Source of the DNA: Flavobacteriaceae bacterium
GTDB taxonomy: Bacteria > Bacteroidota > Bacteroidia > Flavobacteriales > Flavobacteriaceae
Length of the DNA stretch: 64,000 nt
Direction: 5' to 3'
NCBI GenBank assembly: GCA_013373385.1
Contig: JABXHX010000010.1
Coordinates: forward strand, 1 to 64,000
Below are positions 30,841 through 42,335 of the stretch, one piece after another. The notes under the pieces are model-generated. The model ran no database searches. It was not told the origin of the DNA and saw nothing but the letters and a program-made list of their open reading frames with translations. The position numbers and the translations under genes are program-made. Positions within the stretch are counted from its first letter, which is position 1, and every line of letters starts with the position of its first letter.

Positions 30841-31422
30841 ATGGAAAAGTTTACAATAGTAACATCAAGAGCAATTCCGTTACCAACAGAAAATATTGAT
30901 ACCGATCAAATTATTCCTGCGCGCTTTTTAAAAGCAACAGATAAATTAGGTTTTGGCGATAATGTGTTTAGAGATTGGCGTTTCCATAAAGATGGAAGCG
31001 CAAACAAAGATTTTGCATTAAACAACCCAAATTATAGTGGAAATATTTTAGTTGCTGGAGATAATTTTGGTTGCGGTTCTAGTAGAGAGCATGCAGCTTG
31101 GGCGTTAGTTGGCTATGGGTTTAAAGTAATTGTAAGTAGTTTTTTTGCTGATATTTTTAAAGGAAATGCGTTAAATAACGGATTATTACCAGTACAAGTA
31201 ACAGAAGAATATTTAAAAAAATTGTTAGCGCATTTACAAGAAAACCCTACTTCAGAAGTTATTGTCAATTTAGAAGAGCAAACAATTGAGTCTGCTATTG
31301 GAAAGGCAACATTTGAAATAAATACCTATAAGAAAACATGTATGATCAATGGCTATGATGATATTGATTTTTTAATCAGCAATAAAGATAAAATCAAAGC
31401 TTTTGAAGCTAAACATGTGTGA
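30841..31422 (+). CDS. leuD: 3-isopropylmalate dehydratase small subunit
   Basis: 193 residues, swivel subunit partner of LeuC. Key blocks: '[17 protein letters not shown]' near residue 15 and '[18 protein letters not shown]' near 76. Length normal. Two nt after leuC. Followed by a 133-nt gap containing a structured repeat element before leuB. Confidence 0.96.
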
Positions 31423-31431
31423 AAAAACCTT

Positions 31432-31540
31432 GCGTTAGCGATTGAAGTGGCATCCTTTTAATGTCGGTTCGAGTTTGCGAAGCAAGTATCGAGAACAAAT
31501 TAAAAGATATAACGAAAAGCGCGACCACTTGTGGTAACGC
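31432..31540 (+). repeat. Structured intergenic element between leuD and leuB
   Basis: A set of nested complementary arms: GCGTTA (31432-31437)/TAACGC (31535-31540), AAGTGG (31445-31450)/CCACTT (31525-31530), CTTTTAAT (31455-31462)/ATTAAAAG (31499-31506), and an inner hairpin TTGC-GAA-GCAA near 31474-31484. The outer sequence (GCGTTAGCGATTGAAGTGGC .. AACGAAAAGCGCGACC) looks like an interspersed structured element I recall from Flavobacteriia intergenic regions; the Rfam family Flavo-1 is one candidate I cannot test. Within its apical part lies a second repeat (31462-31496) also seen at 35647-35712. Confidence 0.65.
31462..31496 (+). repeat. Interspersed hairpin repeat, copy 1
   Basis: TGTCGGTTCGAGT (31462-31474) followed by GTATCGAGAAC (31486-31496). 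The same ends, TGTC(A/G)GTTCGAGT and GTATCGAGAA, bracket a larger element between ilvC and ilvA. Sits in the apical loop of the leuD-leuB element, so it looks like a nested insertion. Confidence 0.6.
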
Positions 31541-31555: not shown

Positions 31556-32677
31556 ATGAAATATACGATTGCTGTAATTCCAGGAGATGGAATTGGACCA
31601 GAAGTGACCGAGCAAGCAAAAAAAGCTTTAAATGCGGTGGCAGATGTTTACAACCATACTTTTATTTACAAAGAGGCACTAATGGGTGCTTGTGCCATTG
31701 ATGCAACGGGAAATCCGCTGCCAGATGAAACCATAAAAACATGCAAAGCATCAGATGCTATTTTATTTGGAGCCATAGGTCATCCAAAATACGATAATGA
31801 TCCGACAGCTAAAGTAAGACCCGAGCAAGGCTTACTTAAATTGCGTAAAGAATTAGGATTATTTTGTAATGTGAGACCTGTAAAAGCATACGATCAACTG
31901 ATTGAAAATTCTCCATTAAAAAAGGAAATTATCCAAGGCACTGACATTTCAATCTATCGAGAATTAACCGGTGGAATCTATTTCGGAATAAAAGAATTAA
32001 GTGATGATGGAAAAGTAGCTTTTGACGGATGTTCTTATTCAGTTGAAGAGATTGAACGCATTGCACACTTAGCCTTCAAAGAAGCACAAAACAGACGCAA
32101 AAAACTAACCTTAGTTGATAAAGCAAACGTATTAGAAACATCTCGTTTATGGAGAAAAACTGTGACTGAATTATCAAATCAATATCCGGATGTAACATTA
32201 GATTTCTTATTTGTAGACAATGCAGCTATGCAGATGATTTTAAACCCAAAACAGTTTGATGTAATTTTAACAGAGAACTTATTTGGTGATATTATTAGTG
32301 ACGAAGCAAGTGTTATTGGTGGTTCTATTGGTTTATTAGCTTCTGCATCTGTAGGAGAAAAGAATGCGTTATTTGAGCCAATTCATGGTTCATTTCCTCA
32401 GGCAACTGGGAAAGACATAGCAAATCCATTAGCTTCTATTTTATCTGCAGCAATGTTATTAAATCATTTAGGGTTACATGAAGAAGCAAAAGCAGTTGAA
32501 AAAGCAGTTGAAAAATCATTAGTCTTAGGAATCACAACTGAAGATATACAAGGAAAGGATTCTTTCTCTGCATCTACATCTAAAGTAGGTGATTTTATTG
32601 CAGACTACATCGAAAATCAGGATGATAGTAATTTAAATTTTAAGAATATACATATGGGGCAAAGTACTATTATTTAG
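31556..32677 (+). CDS. leuB: 3-isopropylmalate dehydrogenase
   Basis: 373 residues. NAD-dependent oxidative decarboxylation of 3-isopropylmalate to the leucine keto acid. Family blocks: 'VIPGDGIGPEVTEQA' at the N-terminus, 'VRPEQGLLKLRKELGLFCNVRPVK', 'DKANVLETSRLWRKT' and 'DVILTENLFGDIISDEASVIGGSIGLLASAS'. Preceded by AAGAGG, an unusually good Shine-Dalgarno for this window, consistent with independent translation after the long leuD-leuB spacer. Ends at a strong bidirectional terminator. Confidence 0.96.
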   Translation: MKYTIAVIPGDGIGPEVTEQAKKALNAVADVYNHTFIYKEALMGACAIDATGNPLPDETIKTCKASDAILFGAIGHPKYDNDPTAKVRPEQGLLKLRKELGLFCNVRPVKAYDQLIENSPLKKEIIQGTDISIYRELTGGIYFGIKELSDDGKVAFDGCSYSVEEIERIAHLAFKEAQNRRKKLTLVDKANVLETSRLWRKTVTELSNQYPDVTLDFLFVDNAAMQMILNPKQFDVILTENLFGDIISDEASVIGGSIGLLASASVGEKNALFEPIHGSFPQATGKDIANPLASILSAAMLLNHLGLHEEAKAVEKAVEKSLVLGITTEDIQGKDSFSASTSKVGDFIADYIENQDDSNLNFKNIHMGQSTII

Positions 32678-34361: not shown

Positions 34362-35627
34362 TTATATCAAATATTGAAATAAATCAGGTTTGTCGTTTAA
34401 ATAATCACCGTAGAAATTCTTGGCTTTCATCCTTTGAATAAGTGGATTTAGGTCTGAACTTTTTTTCAATTCAATCCCAACAATAGCAGGTGCGTTTTCT
34501 CTACTGTGCTTTTTAGAATATTCAAAATGAGTGATATCATCTTGTGGCCCTAAGATCTCAGCCACAAATTCTTTTAAGGCTCCAGCTCTTTGAGGAAATC
34601 GGATGATAAAGTAATGCTTTAATCCATTATATAATAAGGCTCTTTCTTTAATTTCTGGAGTTCTAGTGATATCATTATTAGAACCGCTAACCACACAAAC
34701 CACATTCTTTCCTTTTATTTCTTCTGCATAAAAATCTAAAGCAGATATTGTTAATGCTCCTGCTGGTTCAACAACAATGGCATCTTTATTATATAAATCT
34801 AAAATGGTCTGACATACTTTCCCTTCAGGAACGGTAATCATAGCATCTAAATTTTCTTTACATATTTGAAAAGTTACATCACCTACTTGTTGCACAGCTG
34901 CACCATCTACAAACTTTTCAATTTTTTCTAATCGAACATTTTTTCCTTTTTCAAATGCTGATTTCATTGAAGGAGCACCAGATGGTTCTACTCCAATAAT
35001 TTTTGTGTTAGGAGATAATACTTTAAATACTGAAGACAAACCAGAGGCCAATCCACCACCACCAACAGGTACAAAAACATAATCAATTGGTTCAGAAAAT
35101 TGTTCAATAATTTCTAATCCAACTGTTGCTTGTCCTTCAATAATTTTTGGATCATTAAAAGGGTGTACAAATGTTTTTTGAAGCAAATCACATTCTCTTT
35201 TTGCTTCTTTTTGAGCATCGTCAAAAGTATCTCCAACTAATTTGATTGTAATATATTCTCCACCAAACATTTTAACTTGTTCTAGCTTTTGTTTAGGGGT
35301 TGGAGTAGGCATAAAGATTGTTCCATGAATTTGGAGTTTCTGACAAGCAAAAGCTACTCCTTGCGCATGATTTCCTGCACTAGCACAAACAATTCCGTTC
35401 TTTAGTTCATCCTGATTTAACGAACTAATTTTATTATATGCTCCTCTAATTTTATACGATCGTACTTGTTGCAAATCTTCTCTTTTCAACAAAATATTTG
35501 CACCAAACTGTCGAGAATAATTGTTGTTATTTAATAAAGGAGTTACTGTAACTACATCTTTCAATGCAGTTACAGCTTCCTTCACATTTACTAACTTAGG
35601 ATAATATGTTGTTGTTTTGAGACTCAT
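34362..35627 (-). CDS. ilvA: Threonine deaminase (biosynthetic)
   Basis: 421 residues, PLP enzyme converting threonine to 2-oxobutyrate, the entry to isoleucine. PLP lysine K59 in 'VRSYKIRGAYNK'; phosphate-binding glycine loop 'VPVGGGGLASGLSS'; 'SGSNNDITR' near 315. A single C-terminal ACT-like regulatory domain (about 340-420: 'HYFIIRFPQRAGALKEFVAEILGPQDDITHFEY') replaces the double domain of the 514-residue E. coli form. Lies after ilvC across a 91-nt repeat-containing gap. Confidence 0.93.
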   Translation of the reverse strand: MSLKTTTYYPKLVNVKEAVTALKDVVTVTPLLNNNNYSRQFGANILLKREDLQQVRSYKIRGAYNKISSLNQDELKNGIVCASAGNHAQGVAFACQKLQIHGTIFMPTPTPKQKLEQVKMFGGEYITIKLVGDTFDDAQKEAKRECDLLQKTFVHPFNDPKIIEGQATVGLEIIEQFSEPIDYVFVPVGGGGLASGLSSVFKVLSPNTKIIGVEPSGAPSMKSAFEKGKNVRLEKIEKFVDGAAVQQVGDVTFQICKENLDAMITVPEGKVCQTILDLYNKDAIVVEPAGALTISALDFYAEEIKGKNVVCVVSGSNNDITRTPEIKERALLYNGLKHYFIIRFPQRAGALKEFVAEILGPQDDITHFEYSKKHSRENAPAIVGIELKKSSDLNPLIQRMKAKNFYGDYLNDKPDLFQYLI

Positions 35628-35718: not shown

Positions 35719-37185
35719 TTATATTTTTTTCATCGCTGTCATAGAAGCTCTTAAAACTGCCCCTACTTTTTCAACTGCATGTCCTCTAATTGCAGTATTA
35801 ACAGCAATTAATTCTTGATTGTCTACACCATTATCTGAGCTAAATGATGTACCAATAATATCTGTATTCACTGTTTTCATAAAATCAGTTAATAATGGTT
35901 TACATGCATGATCAAACAAATAACATCCATACTCTGCTGTATCTGAAATTACACGATTCATTTCGTATAATTTTTTACGTGCAATGGTATTTGCAATTAA
36001 TGGTGTTTCATGTAAAGATTCATAATAAGCAGATTCAGCAATAATTCCTGATTCTGTCATTGCTTCAAATGCCAATTCTACACCAGCTCTTACAAAAGCA
36101 ACCAATAATGTTCCGTGATCGAAATATTCTTGTTCTGAAATTTCTTGATTTGTAATTGGTGTTTTTTCAAAAGCAGTTTCTCCAGTAGCTGCTCTCCATG
36201 CTAATAAGTTTTTATCATCATTTGCCCAATCTTCCATCATGGTTTTAGAAAAATAACCTGACATGATATCATCCATATGTTTTTGGAATAATGGACGCAT
36301 GATTTCTTTTAATTCTTCAGAAACTTGAAATGCTTTTATTTTTGCTGGGTTTGATAAGCGATCCATCATATTGGTAATTCCACCATGCTTTAAGGCTTCT
36401 GTAATTGTTTCCCAACCATACTGAATTAATTTTGCAGCATAACCAGGTTCGATTCCTTCCTCAACCATTTTGTCAAAAGATAAAATAGCTCCTGTTTGTA
36501 ACACTCCACACAAAATGGTTTGCTCTCCCATTAAATCAGACTTTACTTCAGCAACAAAAGACGATTGTAACACTCCCGCTCTATGTCCACCTGTTGCAAA
36601 TGCATATGCTTTGGCCTGTGCTAACCCTTTTCCTTCTGGATCATTTTCTGGATGGACTGCAATTAATGTTGGCACTCCAAATCCTCTTTTGTATTCTTCT
36701 CTAACTTCAGATCCTGGGCACTTTGGTGCTACCATAATTACTGTTAAGTCTTCACGAATTTGCATGCCTTCTTCTACAATATTGAATCCATGAGAGTATG
36801 ATAATGTTGCTCCTTTTTTCATCAACGGCATTACAGCATTTACCACATTGGTATGCTGCTTATCTGGAGTTAAATTCAATACCAAATCTGCTGTTGGCAC
36901 TAATTCTTCATAAGTCCCTACATTGAATCCGTTTTCAGTAGCATTTACAAACGATTGTCTTTTTTCTGCAATTGCTGCTGCTCTTAAAGTATATGAGATA
37001 TCTAATCCAGAATCTCTCATATTTAATCCTTGGTTTAGCCCCTGAGCACCACAACCTACAATTACAATTTTCTTTCCTTTTAATGCATCTATCCCATCTT
37101 CAAATTCTGAAGATTCCATAAACCTACATTTCCCTAATTCTGTTAATTGATCTCTTAACGATAACGTGTTAAAATAATTTGTCAT
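35719..37185 (-). CDS. ilvC: Ketol-acid reductoisomerase, long (class II) form
   Basis: 488 residues, the length of class II enzymes with a duplicated helical knotted domain. Converts acetolactate/acetohydroxybutyrate to dihydroxy acids with NADPH and Mg2+. '[33 protein letters not shown]' near 33-70 is the Rossmann nucleotide loop. '[27 protein letters not shown]' and '[17 protein letters not shown]' hold the metal/substrate residues. Part of the ilvD-B-N-C-A run on the - strand. Confidence 0.96.
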
Positions 37186-37202: not shown

Positions 37203-37724
37203 TTAAAATGCAGTTAGCATTTCTGAAATATTCATTGGTTCTTTTGTAACTGATATTCTTCCTGACCTTACAAATTGCAACAATCTATAAGGTTTTAAAT
37301 CTTGATATAGTTTTTCTGTTTCATGTCTTCTTCCTGTTTTCTCAATCACAAAAAACTCACGAGAAACGGTTACTATATTTGCATGACTATCTTTAATGAT
37401 ATTCTGTATTTGACGTTCGTCAAATAGTGAGTCTGATGCTACTTTAAATAAGGCTGACTCTTGGTAAATAGTTTCTTCATCTGTATGAGCATATGCTTTA
37501 ATCACTTCAATTTGTTTTTCTAATTGCCCAACAATTTTTCTAGCTTGACTATCATCCATTGTAGCAACGATTACAAATCGATTTACATTTTCGATTTCTG
37601 ATTGAGAAGTGGTTAAACTCTCTATATTGATATGTCTTTTTAAAAAGATTGATGAAACTCTGTTTAACAATCCTACATTGTTTTCTGTATATACTGATAT
37701 GGTATATGATTTTTGATTCGCCAT
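37203..37724 (-). CDS. ilvN: Acetolactate synthase small (regulatory) subunit
   Basis: 173 residues. N-terminal ACT domain '[33 protein letters not shown]' binds valine for feedback control of IlvB; the C-terminal half '[45 protein letters not shown]' is the usual second domain. Six nt after ilvB and 17 nt before ilvC. Confidence 0.94.
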
Positions 37725-37730
37725 AATTTC

Positions 37731-39464
37731 TTAACTTAATCTTACGTCTGATACTGATGCTCCTGTCGGAATCATCGGGAATACATTATTTTCTTTTTCT
37801 ACACATACTTCTAAAAAGTATGATCCTTCTGTAGATAACATTTCTTCTACAGCACTTGCCAATTCTTCTCTTTTAGTAACTCTTTTTGCGTTGATATGAT
37901 ATCCTTTAGCAATGGTTATAAAATCTGGATTTACCATTTCGGTAGAAGCATATCTTTTGTCAAAGAATAATTGTTGCCATTGACGAACCATTCCTAAGAA
38001 TTCGTTATTTAACACTACAATTTTAACGGCAGCTTTGGTTTGTAAAATAGTTCCCAATTCTTGGATAGTCATTTGATAACCTCCATCACCGATAATGGCA
38101 ATAACTTCTCTATCTGGCGCTCCCATTTTTGCTCCAATAGCTGCTGGCAAAGCAAATCCCATTGTTCCTAAACCTCCTGAAGTAATGTTACTTTTAGTTT
38201 GTGTAAACTCTGCATATCTACAAGCCATCATTTGATGTTGACCAACATCTGAAACAATCACTGCTTTACCTCCAGTTTTACTATTAATTTCTTTCATTAC
38301 TTCTCCCATTGTAATTCCTTCTTTCGTTGGATACAATTCATCTTTAATAACTTTTTCAAACTCAATAGTATCATGGCTTCTATATTCTTGAAGCCATTCT
38401 TTATGAGAGTTTTCATTAACTAATGGTAAAATTTTCGCTAATGTTTCTTTTGCATTTCCTAAAACTGCGACATCAGTTTTTACATTTTTATCAACCTCAG
38501 CTGGATCAATTTCAAAATGAATTACCTTTGCTTGTTTAGCATAAGTTGCTAAATTTCCTGTAACTCGATCATCGAAACGCATCCCAACAGCAATTAACAC
38601 ATCACATTCATTGGTTAATTTATTTGGTCCATAATTACCATGCATTCCTACCATTCCTACATTTAATGGATGTTTAGAATCTAATGCAGATAATCCTAAA
38701 ATGGTCCAAGCAGAAGGGATTCCGGTTTTTTCAATAAACGCTTTGAATTCTTCTTCGGCTTCACCTAAGATTACTCCCTGACCAAAAACAATCATTGGTT
38801 TTTTAGCAGCGTTGATCAATTTTGCAGCTTCTAACAATTGCCCTTTATCGATGTCGGGCACAGCTTTATAGCTTCTGATTGAAGTACATTTTTCGTATTC
38901 AAAATCAAACGTATCAAATTGTGCATTTTTAGTAATATCAATTAATACAGGCCCTGGTCTTCCAGAACGTGCGATGTAAAATGCCTTAGCCAAAACTTCT
39001 GGAATTTCAGAAGCTTCAGTAATTTGATAATTCCATTTAGTAACTGGAGTTGAGATTCCAACAATATCTGTTTCTTGAAATGCATCAGACCCTAATAAAT
39101 GTTTTCCAACTTGTCCTGTAATACATACCATTGGAGTAGAATCTATTTGAGCATCTGCAATTCCGGTAACTAAATTTGTAGCACCTGGTCCAGATGTTGC
39201 CATAGCAACTCCAACTTTCCCGGTAACTCTTGCAAATCCTTGAGCTGAATGTGTGGCACCTTGTTCGTGACGCGTTAACACATGACGTAATTGGTCTTGA
39301 TATTTATACAATTCATCATAAATAGGCATAATTGCACCTCCTGGATAACCGTAAATTAAATCGACGCCTTCCGCTAACAAACATCTAATGACTGCTTCAG
39401 CACCAGAAATATGTTGTGTTTTCTTCTCGATTGTTAAATTGGCTGTTTGTGTTTGAGCTTTCAT
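37731..39464 (-). CDS. ilvB: Acetolactate synthase large (catalytic) subunit
   Basis: 577 residues, TPP- and FAD-dependent. The catalytic Glu region 'GVDLIYGYPGGAIMPIYDEL' is near residue 33. 'RHEQGATHSAQGFARVTGKVGVAMATSGPGATNLVTGI' follows, and the TPP-Mg motif 'IGDGGYQMTIQELGTILQTKAAVKIVVLNN' lies near 453. Condenses two pyruvates, or pyruvate with 2-oxobutyrate. Lies 17 nt after ilvD. Confidence 0.96.
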   Translation of the reverse strand: MKAQTQTANLTIEKKTQHISGAEAVIRCLLAEGVDLIYGYPGGAIMPIYDELYKYQDQLRHVLTRHEQGATHSAQGFARVTGKVGVAMATSGPGATNLVTGIADAQIDSTPMVCITGQVGKHLLGSDAFQETDIVGISTPVTKWNYQITEASEIPEVLAKAFYIARSGRPGPVLIDITKNAQFDTFDFEYEKCTSIRSYKAVPDIDKGQLLEAAKLINAAKKPMIVFGQGVILGEAEEEFKAFIEKTGIPSAWTILGLSALDSKHPLNVGMVGMHGNYGPNKLTNECDVLIAVGMRFDDRVTGNLATYAKQAKVIHFEIDPAEVDKNVKTDVAVLGNAKETLAKILPLVNENSHKEWLQEYRSHDTIEFEKVIKDELYPTKEGITMGEVMKEINSKTGGKAVIVSDVGQHQMMACRYAEFTQTKSNITSGGLGTMGFALPAAIGAKMGAPDREVIAIIGDGGYQMTIQELGTILQTKAAVKIVVLNNEFLGMVRQWQQLFFDKRYASTEMVNPDFITIAKGYHINAKRVTKREELASAVEEMLSTEGSYFLEVCVEKENNVFPMIPTGASVSDVRLS

Positions 39465-39481: not shown

Positions 39482-41161
39482 TTATGCATCGGTTACACAT
39501 CCTTTAGATGCTGATGCCACAGTTTTTGCGTATTTATATAAAATTCCTTTGTTATGTTTTAATGCTGGCGTTCTCCAATTTGCTTTTCTTTCGGCAAGTT
39601 CTTCTTCAGACAACAACACATTAATTGAATTATTTTCTGCACTAATTCTTATAGTATCTCCTGTTTTTAATAAAGCAATAGTTCCGCCAGATTGTGCTTC
39701 TGGTGTTATATGACCAACTACAAATCCATGAGTTCCGCCAGAGAATCTTCCGTCTGTAATTAGTGCTACAGATTTACCTAAACCTGCACCCATAATTAAT
39801 GAGGTTGGTTTTAACATTTCTGGCATTCCTGGGCCTCCTTTTGGACCTACATAACGTATCACAACGACGTCTCCTTTTTCAACTTCTCCATTAGAGATTC
39901 CAGTATTTGCAGCTTGTTCTCCATCATACACCACTGCTTTACCTTCAAAATACAAGCCCTCATTTCCACTAATTTTAGCAACTGCTCCTTCAGATGCTAG
40001 GTTACCGTGTAAGATTTGAATGTTTCCAGATGATTTTAAAGCTTTATCCTTTGGATAAATTACATCTTGATCATTCTCAAAAGTCAATGGTTCTACATCA
40101 GCTAAATTTTCTGCTAGTGTTTTACCTGTTACTGTTAAACAATCGCCATATAAAAAGCCATTGTCTAATAAATATTTCATAACAGCTGGAGTACCTCCAA
40201 CACCATGTACATCTTCCATTAAGTATTTTCCGCTCGGTTTTAAATCAGCTATTAATGGCGTTCTATCACTCACTCTTTGAAAATCTTCTAGCGAAAAATC
40301 AATATCCGCAGCGTGTGCTATTGCTAAAAAGTGTAATACTGCATTTGTTGAACCTCCTAATGCGTTTACAATAGCGATGGCATTTTCGATTGATTTCTTA
40401 GAGATAATATCTAAAGGCTTTAAATCTAATTTTAATAGATTTAAAATAGCTTCAGCTGTGCGTTCGCTTTCTGTTAATTTATTTGGATTTTCAGCTGGAA
40501 TTGAAGAATTATATGGCAAAGAAAACCCCATTGCTTCTATAGCGGATGCCATTGTATTTGCCGTATACATTCCTCCACAAGCACCTGCTCCTGGAATGGC
40601 TCTTTTGATGATTTCTTTATATTCGTTTTCGTCAATTTCTCCTGCAACTTTTTGTCCTAATGCTTCAAAAGCAGAAACGATGTTTAATTTTCTCCCTTTG
40701 TAATTCCCAGAAGCAATGGTTCCTCCATACATCATTATTGATGGGCGATTTAAACGTAGCATAGCAATTACAGCTCCTGGCATATTTTTATCACAACCAA
40801 CTACAGAAATTAATCCATCATAACTTTGTGCATTCATTACAGTTTCTATTGAATCTGCAATAATATCTCTAGAAGCAAGTGAATAATTCATTCCAGAAGT
40901 TCCCATAGAAATTCCATCACTAACTCCTATAGTATTGAACCCTAAACCTACCATTCCTGCAATATTACATTCGGTTTTTACCTCAGCTGCCAATCTGTTT
41001 AAATGCATATTACAAGGATTACCATCATAACCTGTACTTGCAATTCCGACTTGCGCCTTCTGCATGTCTTCTTCTTGCAAGCCTACTGCATATAGCATCG
41101 CTTGAGATGCTGGTTGAGATTGATCTTGAGTTAATCTTTTACTGTGTTTATTCAGCTCCAT
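39482..41161 (-). CDS. ilvD: Dihydroxy-acid dehydratase
   Basis: 559 residues, Fe-S enzyme making the keto acids of valine and isoleucine. Fe-S ligands are in 'NPCNMHLN', '[15 protein letters not shown]' and '[13 protein letters not shown]'. The catalytic-end block '[24 protein letters not shown]' lies near 470. First structural gene of the operon, following a 470-nt leader with two attenuators (41331-41642). The start '[13 protein letters not shown]' fits the family; a 21-codon upstream ORF overlaps it out of frame. Confidence 0.96.
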
Positions 41162-41330
41162 TTTTAGTACTACTTTTTTTACGATTTTCGAAATTAGATA
41201 TTTGTCTATTCATCTGTTTTTGTTTTTAGTTTTCTAGCTTATAGTCAATAGATTAAATTTTTATTTAAATAGCTCACTATCAGTATTTTATAAAATTTTA
41301 CATTATGAAATTCAGTTGTTTTTTAATTAT

Positions 41331-41363
41331 AAAAAAAGCCTGTATGAATTGATACAGGCTTTT
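41331..41363 (-). terminator. Attenuator terminator 2 of the ilv leader
   Basis: On the - strand: 12-bp perfect stem AAAAGCCTGTAT / ATACAGGCTTTT (arms 41352-41363 and 41334-41345), loop CAATTC, then a T-run at 41331-41337. A copy of the 5' arm's partner, TTGATACAG (41388-41396), overlaps the stop codon of leader peptide 2 and can pair with CTGTATCAA of the terminator to block it. Confidence 0.92.
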
Positions 41364-41392
41364 GCTTTATTGTAAGGCATTAGTAATCTGTA

Positions 41393-41458
41393 TCAACTCG
41401 GCGGTGAGCTAATAATGACGATAATGACTACAATAATTATGTTCTTTATTAAATTCAT
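41393..41458 (-). CDS. ilv leader peptide 2 (21 residues)
   Basis: ATG at 41456-41458, stop TGA at 41393-41395. Residues 7-16 read IIIVVIIVII: ten consecutive branched-chain codons, 8 Ile and 3 Val in all. An in-frame ATG 15 nt upstream (41473) could lengthen it to 26 residues. It sits between the two terminators. A ribosome stalling on the Ile/Val codons would leave the downstream antiterminator TTGATACAG free; one finishing at the stop codon would cover it. This is the classic arrangement for translation-coupled attenuation. Confidence 0.85.
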   Translation of the reverse strand: MNLIKNIIIVVIIVIISSPPS

Positions 41459-41473
41459 TTTAATTGATTGCAT

Positions 41474-41504
41474 AAAAAAAGCCTTCCGAATTCGGAAGGC
41501 TTTT
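41474..41504 (-). terminator. Attenuator terminator 1 of the ilv leader
   Basis: A perfect 28-bp palindrome (41477-41504) built from AAAAGCCTTCCGAA and its complement, with a T-run (- strand) at 41474-41480. GGAAG just after the stop of leader 1 (near 41529-41533) can pair with CTTCC of its 5' arm, a weaker candidate antiterminator than in the second attenuator. Confidence 0.9.
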
Positions 41505-41534
41505 ATACTATTTTTAAATTATATATACACTTCC

Positions 41535-41597
41535 TTATCGTTGCTTTTGAATAGCAATGACAATACTAGAAATGATATTAATTACTTGTGTGTTCAT
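41535..41597 (-). CDS. ilv leader peptide 1 (20 residues)
   Basis: ATG at 41595-41597, stop TAA at 41535-41537. The core VINIISSIVIAI contains 6 Ile and 2 Val in twelve residues. It begins about 33 nt after the predicted transcription start and ends 31 nt before terminator 1. Composition, position and the following terminator all fit an isoleucine/valine leader peptide. Confidence 0.82.
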   Translation of the reverse strand: MNTQVINIISSIVIAIQKQR

Positions 41598-41634
41598 TTT
41601 GATTGGACAAATATCAAAAAATATTTTAAGCCTG

Positions 41635-41642
41635 CAAATTTA
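41635..41642 (-). promoter_or_regulatory. -7 element of the ilv leader transcript
   Basis: On the - strand TAAATTTG, exact TAnnTTTG match, placing the transcript start near 41630, upstream of both leader peptides. Confidence 0.6.
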
Positions 41643-41695
41643 TTTAAAGAAAAGTTAATTTTATTGTTGAAATATATTATTTGTTTTTAATACTA

Positions 41696-41708: not shown

Positions 41709-42335
41709 ATGCTAAAAACAGAGAACATTGCTTTTTCTTACAACCAAGAAACAACATTTAATTTTCCTAATATTAAATTAAATGATAATGATTCTCTATT
41801 GATACTTGGTGAATCTGGAATTGGTAAAACAACATTGTTGCATTTGTTGGCCGGGATTTTAAGTCCAGATGAAGGAAGTATTCTTATCAACAATACAAAT
41901 ATTTCTAAATTATCAGCTAAAAAATTAGATGCTTTTAGAGGAAAAAATATTGGTTTAATTTTTCAGAATACGATAGCTGTTTCTTCAATATCTATTTATG
42001 AGAACATTCAATCTCGATTATATTTTAGTGGCATCAAAAATCAAAAATCGGCAACTGAAGATATTTTAAAGCAATTGGATTTATCGCATGTAAAACATCA
42101 AAAGCCAAATACCTTAAGTACTGGTCAATTACAACGATTAGGAATTGCATTAGGTGTAATTCATAAACCTTGTGTGATTTTAGCTGATGAGCCTACTTCT
42201 AGTTTGGATGATAAAAACTGTGATTTAGTTATTGAATTATTAAAATCGCAAGCAAAAAAAGCAAATGCTAATTTGATAATCATTACTCACGACCAACGAA
42301 TTAAAAACTCGTTTGATAATACCCTTGTATTATGA
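41709..42335 (+). CDS. ABC transporter ATP-binding protein (LolD/MacB type)
   Basis: 208 residues. Walker A GESGIGKTT near 35, Q-loop 'LIFQN' near 83, signature 'STGQLQRLGIALG' near 138, Walker B 'CVILADEPTSSLD' near 154, H-loop 'ITHD' near 194. Energises the FtsX-type permease encoded next, with which it overlaps by 4 nt (ATGA). With the third gene the set resembles the Vibrio cholerae Zrg zinc-uptake locus more than lipoprotein-export LolCDE. Confidence 0.88.
   Translation: MLKTENIAFSYNQETTFNFPNIKLNDNDSLLILGESGIGKTTLLHLLAGILSPDEGSILINNTNISKLSAKKLDAFRGKNIGLIFQNTIAVSSISIYENIQSRLYFSGIKNQKSATEDILKQLDLSHVKHQKPNTLSTGQLQRLGIALGVIHKPCVILADEPTSSLDDKNCDLVIELLKSQAKKANANLIIITHDQRIKNSFDNTLVL

Follow-up and report, generated by a model that had tools for sequence, protein, structure and literature searches.

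Two putative Ile/Val leader-peptide attenuators in series upstream of the ilvDBNCA operon of a Flavobacteriaceae bacterium

The ilvDBNCA operon and its leader region

The window considered here, that is, the whole stretch of 64,000 nucleotides from a Flavobacteriaceae bacterium, carries the ilvDBNCA operon and its two-unit leader on the minus strand (Table 1). The ilvD gene starts at 41161 and is followed by ilvB, ilvN, ilvC and ilvA, and the products of all five genes exceeded the NCBIfam cut-offs, their identities thus fitting the order ilvD-B-N-C-A that the original prediction had placed downstream of two leaders. The elements that it had listed before ilvD, namely two Ile/Val leader ORFs and two intrinsic terminators, are all literally present. 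In both units, codons for the operon's amino acids abound in a short ORF, and an intrinsic terminator predicted from the sequence lies between this ORF and the first gene. The terminator 1 palindrome was given on the plus strand only in one terminator listing, and TTTATAATT is found directly 3′ of the terminator 2 stem (41363-41334). Leader 2 would be five residues longer (26 aa, as listed) if translated from the in-frame ATG at 41473; relatives start this leader at the place of the inner ATG (41458), which is most likely the start codon rather than 41473. On the far side from ilvD, the leader region is bordered by a divergent ABC-transporter-like gene (41709-42335, plus strand). No tRNA was detected in the window by ARAGORN.

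Table 1. Features of the ilvDBNCA operon and its leader region (window positions)
Feature	Position	Strand	Basis
GATATTTG, conserved promoter -7-like element; predicted transcript start ~41603	41608..41615	-	Motif counts
TTTG, candidate -33 element, inside TAAATTTG (41642-41635)	41635..41638	-	Distance from -7-like element
Leader peptide 1 ORF, MNTQVINIISSIVIAIQKQR, 20 aa	41535..41597	-	ORF list, unit detector
Unit 1 segment 1, over Val/Ile codons; pairs with 41545-41535	41553..41563	-	RNA fold, helix counts
Unit 1 segment 2, 1:2 side, ending at stop codon	41535..41545	-	RNA fold, helix counts
Unit 1 antiterminator strand GGAAG, directly 3′ of stop; pairs with CTTCC 41498-41494	41530..41534	-	RNA fold
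Intrinsic terminator 1 stem-loop; T run 41478-41474 next	41479..41502	-	Sequence prediction
Leader peptide 2 ORF, MNLIKNIIIVVIIVIISSPPS, 21 aa; alternative start 41473	41393..41458	-	ORF list, relatives
Unit 2 segment 1, Ile-Ile-Ser-Ser codons; pairs with 41399-41391	41406..41414	-	RNA fold, helix counts
Unit 2 segment 2, 1:2 side, overlaps stop codon	41391..41399	-	RNA fold, helix counts
Unit 2 antiterminator strand TTGATACAG; pairs with CTGTATCAA 41357-41349	41388..41396	-	RNA fold
Intrinsic terminator 2 stem-loop; T run 41333-41331 next	41334..41363	-	Sequence prediction
ilvD, dihydroxy-acid dehydratase, first operon gene	39482..41161	-	NCBIfam TIGR00110
ilvB, acetolactate synthase large subunit	37731..39464	-	TIGR00118
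ilvN, acetolactate synthase small subunit	37203..37724	-	TIGR00119
ilvC, ketol-acid reductoisomerase	35719..37185	-	NF003557 / TIGR00465
ilvA, threonine ammonia-lyase	34362..35627	-	NF006390 / TIGR02079

The units were recognized by a detector that looks for an intrinsic terminator downstream of an ORF with a stretch of 11 residues of which at least six are Ile or Val. Applied to both strands of the window (minus the last 500 bases of each), it returned only the two units described above. No unit arose when the 700 nt preceding ilvD in the window were dinucleotide-shuffled 2000 times, nor in 240 shuffled sequences, each up to 600 nt long, made from the 80 named loci introduced below. When 273 ilvD-upstream regions were scanned, a unit was present on the coding strand of 191 versus eight on the reverse strand, and no third unit appeared in any of the 273 at a looser threshold. 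Detectors set to seven residue pairs without Ile or Val responded in 0 to 30 of these regions, while those set to Ile plus Leu and to Leu plus Val responded in 160 and 24, respectively.

The paired units among relatives and the promoter element

The 273 distinct regions, obtained after the last 400 nt had been used to remove six duplicates, were picked from lists and are not a random sample. The named loci are the best 80 among the matches listed; in the family set, ilvD was found in 233 of 299 genomes and the top 89 were used, one with less than 300 nt upstream being left out; and in the genus set, ilvD was found in 154 of 166 genomes, from which 109 regions were taken. In one GTDB genus, two ilvD types occur, about 85-92% and about 70% identical to that of the window, and the genus regions comprise the first 69 listed with the closer type plus 40 of the 42 listed of the ~70% type. 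Both types are carried by one genome (G319), and their coexistence suggests that ilv genes have been transferred.

By the detector, 61 of the 273 regions harbored two units, 130 one and 82 none, the pair of Ile/Val-rich ORFs and terminators being shared by many relatives of the window's bacterium. These two-unit regions comprise the window itself, 6 of 80 named loci, 6 of 86 family regions and 48 of 106 genus regions, the last proportion not being a frequency, because the ~70% type, which is the richest in tandems, had been chosen. Some doubtful rows were retained among the 61, namely L264, whose unit 1 has a long reading frame, and L264, L281 and L284, in which 77-156 nt separate the units. 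The order of the terminators, a CTTCC class followed by a CTGTATC class, was the same in 56 of the 61 tandems. The five with other first stems were found in Cyclobacteriaceae (L022), an Ignavibacteriota record (L024), Aquimarina (L031), Myroides (L043) and L235, a member of the same genus as the window whose second unit is of the CTGTATC class. On average, the two units of one leader are 57% identical. In Aquimarina L031, the units, located at -523 to -252 before ilvD, share 75% identity and look like a separate recent duplication.

The history of the pair was followed on a tree of the 138 of 273 rows with a full ilvD, which reflects the descent of ilvD and not that of the species. On this tree, the tandem label changed at least 10 times, six of the changes being forced by supported branches, which indicates that pairs were gained or lost many times. 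Among the 64 tree rows around the window, 41 had a single unit, 13 none and 10 a tandem; since a single unit is commoner than the pair in these close relatives, the pair is dispensable.

In many genus loci (e.g., Tenacibaculum caenipelagi L010, L134), the tandem is separated from ilvD by approximately 1.1-1.3 kb, a distance that includes one gene. In L010, L134 and L214, this position is occupied by a branched-chain aminotransferase-like gene, which reads from its sequence as ilvE. Additionally, in a record titled Thalassovita (Pseudomonadota; L051), ilvD clusters with rows from Bacteroidota and has an Ile/Val leader, perhaps as a result of a binning error.

Regarding the promoter, 47 of the 61 tandem leaders have the motif AT[AC]TTTG in the 40 nt preceding leader 1, where 1.2 would be expected, and the other 14 lack it in this interval, while between the two units it was found in none of the 61. 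A looser version, T[AC]TTTG, was present within 60 nt in 53 leaders, and in 44 of these its end lay 7-10 nt upstream of the ATG. The original prediction had located the promoter in a TAnnTTTG string at 41635-41642 and the transcript start near 41630. That string is present but not conserved, any TAnnTTTG within 100 nt being found in seven of the 61 leaders against 6.6 expected, and the element that is conserved, AT[AC]TTTG, lies about 27 nt further downstream; the TTTG at 41638-41635 would fit a -33 element relative to it. In Flavobacterium psychrophilum, the promoter box occupies positions -12 to -5 (PMC9723704), which would set the transcript start near 41603, six nucleotides before leader 1, instead of near 41630. 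The position of the element (41615-41608) therefore makes leader 1 nearly leaderless. In turn, the gap from terminator 1 to the start of leader 2 measures 13-25 nt in 54 of the 61 tandems, so short that it leaves little space for a second promoter. Since the promoter element is found only before leader 1 and the gap is short, both units most likely lie in series on one transcript.

Alternative helices and codon use in the leaders

In both units, three helices were predicted, corresponding to the 1:2, 2:3 (antiterminator) and 3:4 (terminator) pairings of classical attenuators, with segment 2 located at the leader stop codon. When the RNA of the window was folded only to the 5′ arm of the terminator, this arm paired with the strand at the stop codon in both units; when it was folded at full length, the terminator won, and the stop-codon strand paired back over the Ile/Val codons. 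Thus, by pairing and position, each unit has a predicted antiterminator that is mutually exclusive with the terminator and whose first strand lies at the stop codon, together with a 1:2 protector helix over the control codons. The same behavior was observed across the 61 tandem leaders, in which the expected number of 2:3 pairs in pre-terminator transcripts was 6.94 in unit 1 and 6.32 in unit 2, against 1.12 and 1.62, respectively, in shuffled leaders, while that of 1:2 pairs in the full RNA was 9.17 against 4.80 in unit 1 and 12.87 against 5.56 in unit 2. At least four expected 2:3 pairs before the terminator were reached by just 0.67 of the unit-2 leaders (0.15 of the shuffled ones), and the pre-terminator fold of L010 and that of L205 favor the 1:2 helix.

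The position of the antiterminator strand was equally consistent, since the longest complement of the terminator arm begins at most 4 nt from the end of the stop codon in 54 (unit 1) and 56 (unit 2) of the 61 tandems and in 82 of the 130 single units. Over 252 units, the stop-codon segment fits its own terminator arm best, with 4.87 consecutive pairs versus 3.90 with the arms of other units (Wilcoxon P about 1e-22). This gain is large in unit 2 (5.75 versus 3.30), smaller in unit 1 (5.28 versus 4.38) and small in single units (4.27 versus 3.95).

Two-sided changes were found in the 1:2 helix at eight of 10 pairs in unit 1 (49 distinct rows) and at five of nine in unit 2 (46 distinct rows), counts that are inflated by kinship among the rows. 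The fraction of paired cells was 0.79 in unit 1, where 500 re-dealings of the 3′ arms gave a mean of 0.73 and a maximum of 0.77, and 0.91 in unit 2, where they gave a mean of 0.85 and a maximum of 0.90; when the partners were slid by 1-3 columns, at most 0.56 and 0.47, respectively, remained paired. Single units of the CTTCC class, considered in the same register, showed 0.64 paired cells against a re-dealt maximum of 0.59 (98 rows). These margins are narrow because the helix arms are strongly conserved, and, within them, the two-sided substitutions support the RNA helices of both units. The helix is also kept where the peptide varies. In leader 1, the residues IAIQKQR of the window correspond to VIISQG in Tenacibaculum L010, and the arms TTGCT/AGCAA to TTGTGA/TCACAA, with the helix kept. 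Likewise, SLWTS or NFFKS may replace SSPPS at the leader C-termini with retention of the helix, for which 55 rows showed on average 4.8 of five pairs (4.35 when re-dealt).

The two control regions both contain Val and Ile codons, and the mean counts of Ile and Val per leader are 7.28 and 2.56 in unit 1 and 6.89 and 2.34 in unit 2. The units differ in the codons used, with GTG representing 0.28 versus 0.08 of the Val codons and ATA 0.02 versus 0.10 of the Ile codons in units 1 and 2, respectively. GTC contributes 0.40 and 0.52 of the leader Val codons versus 0.045 in the long ORFs of the window. A rare GTC could act as a tRNA-sensitivity device, an explanation that was rejected, since, of the GTC codons counted in distinct rows, 26 of 39 for unit 1 and 35 of 41 for unit 2 occupy codon -24, at which GTC pairs with segment 2. 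This pairing accounts for much of the bias, and the GTC excess would chiefly, although not surely in full, reflect a pairing constraint.

Proposed attenuation mechanism and its relation to known systems

The presence of two Ile/Val leader-peptide attenuators in series before ilvD, as originally predicted, is well supported at the sequence level by the ORFs and terminators with their conserved order, the alternative helices whose pairing is kept by two-sided substitutions, and the single promoter element. It is thus highly probable that one ilvDBNCA transcript passes through two ribosome-controlled Ile/Val terminators. According to this model, the transcript would begin about 6 nt before leader 1, and the polymerase would meet two intrinsic terminators, each behind its own leader ORF with Ile/Val codons. 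With ample Ile/Val-tRNA, the ribosome would reach the stop codon and cover segment 2, allowing the terminator to form. On the other hand, a ribosome stalled on the Val/Ile codons over segment 1 would leave segment 2 free to pair with the terminator's 5′ arm and let the polymerase read through. Since a single promoter and a single signal are common to both units, readthrough would be the product of two starvation-dependent probabilities, which would lower the off state and make the response steeper. What we infer from this architecture is that the leaders are translated, that ribosomes stall on them, that transcription terminates in vivo and that the two readthrough probabilities multiply; the sharper response formerly attributed to the pair is plausible.

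Three other explanations deserve consideration. The two units could sense different signals, such as Ile versus Val or distinct tRNA isoacceptors, in the manner of the Salmonella mgtCBR leader, whose ORFs answer ATP and proline. The average identity of 57% between the units and their somewhat different use of GTG and ATA would be in line with such a division, which is nevertheless unlikely, considering that the mean Ile and Val counts are nearly equal, that both control regions contain Val and Ile codons, and that the GTC excess is mainly confined to one codon whose pairing with segment 2 explains much of the bias. Even less probable is that only one unit is active and that the other represents a relic of duplication or recombination adding constitutive termination. 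The frequent gain and loss of the pair on the ilvD tree and the 130 regions that manage with one unit could be read in this way; a relic, however, should decay, whereas both tandem units keep the ORF, the helices and the terminator, with two-sided changes in both helices and the order of the terminator classes kept in nearly all tandems.

The small hydrophobic, sequence-conserved peptides could also be products in themselves, such as membrane peptides or toxins, and not sensors. This is very hard to reconcile with their location before ilv genes, with terminators in a narrow distance range, and with C-terminal residues that change while the RNA helix is kept, and it was considered extremely improbable. 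The model of two same-signal attenuators in series can be extended to the proposal that Bacteroidota repeatedly placed such pairs before ilv operons as a two-ribosome AND gate with ultrasensitive readthrough, in which leader 1 is nearly leaderless and leader 2 is read by internal or re-initiating ribosomes. This broader proposal is tentative, its chances falling somewhat short of even; if true, the AND gate would represent an ultrasensitive switch beyond the reach of a single classical attenuator. The same-signal pair beside single-unit relatives provides a natural experiment on the benefit of a second attenuator, and, as the same gene may be preceded by one unit or by two within a single GTDB genus, the question can be tested directly. 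Additionally, the location of segment 2 at the stop codon could serve as a search rule for leader-peptide attenuators across Bacteroidota.

Leader-peptide attenuators are known for trp, his, leu, thr, ilvGMEDA, ilvBN and pheA (PMC1183508). The ilvD leader shares with the classical amino-acid attenuators the ORF with control codons, the 1:2, 2:3 and 3:4 helices, the intrinsic terminator and the operon for the sensed amino acids, and differs from them in having two full units, a nearly leaderless first ORF and a promoter element of the Bacteroidota type. The Salmonella mgtCBR leader likewise has two short ORFs in one leader of one operon; however, its ORFs answer different signals (PMC3641672), whereas those of the ilvD leader, judged by sequence, are rich in the same residues and do not form a tandem of that kind. 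In addition, the mgtCBR stem-loops are described as unlike intrinsic terminators (PMC3641672), two of which are found in the ilvD leader. Two leader peptides also precede ermB, where, unlike in the ilvD leader, erythromycin is reported to induce translational attenuation (PMC8274638). In some Gammaproteobacteria, the rimP leader has a second, upstream terminator with a potential antiterminator (PMC2965389); it shares the two tandem terminators with the ilvD leader and differs from it in that no leader peptide or amino-acid signal is named in the accessible part of that report.

No Rfam family reached its gathering score in the ilvD leader, where Thr_leader scored 28.6 of 55 bits, Phe_leader 34.4 on the plus and 32.5 on the minus strand against a cut-off of 55, and Bacteroid-trp (RF01692) 21.9 of 49 bits. 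No T-box was found at gathering score in the window, and the 35 matches with E values up to 5 within 41290-41680 included none. T-boxes and riboswitches work without a leader peptide, as the RNA itself binds the tRNA or the metabolite. Double T-boxes and tandem riboswitches have been reported (PMC9413887; metE in PMC3641672) and share with the ilvD leader the arrangement of two attenuators in series on one transcript.

Within the Bacteroidota, the Rfam family RF01692, Bacteroid-trp, is a named peptide leader that likewise stands for attenuation by a leader peptide. A comparative attenuation study by Vitreschak and others, from 2004, is said to include Bacteroidetes. In 2010, leader peptides were known only from Proteobacteria and Actinobacteria, in addition to ermC and the Firmicutes case described in the same paper (PMC2965389). 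Hints of leader-peptide attenuation before amino-acid operons were reported in F. psychrophilum, in passages that name neither ilv nor tandems (PMC9723704), and sORFs reminiscent of leader peptides were reported in Bacteroides thetaiotaomicron, in passages that likewise name neither (PMC7366714). The original prediction knew of no description for Flavobacteriia; attenuation by leader peptides as such is already on record in the group (PMC9723704; Rfam Bacteroid-trp). No same-signal leader-peptide tandem before an amino-acid operon was found in the open-access literature searched, most subscription papers lying outside it. Leader-peptide attenuation in flavobacteria is thus already published, and what would be new here is the same-signal tandem.

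Single leader-peptide units seem to be used elsewhere in this lineage, as judged from the hisG, trpE-like and leuA-like genes of the window's own genome. A candidate leader, MTFIQFNHHHHFYICTQAN, with four His codons and followed by a terminator, precedes hisG (L302, on C69), and a candidate frame ending in MMKQQNIWWWNSLS, with three Trp codons and likewise followed by a terminator, precedes the trpE-like gene (L304, on C58). No terminator was found in the 700 nt upstream of the leuA-like gene, which, like the trpE-like gene, scores below its family cut-off. Downstream of the leuA-like gene, a Flavo-1 RNA (Rfam RF01705; 51 bits against a cut-off of 42) was identified at 31427-31530 of the window, on the plus strand, between the ORFs 30841-31422 and 31556-32677, which by position may belong to a leu operon.
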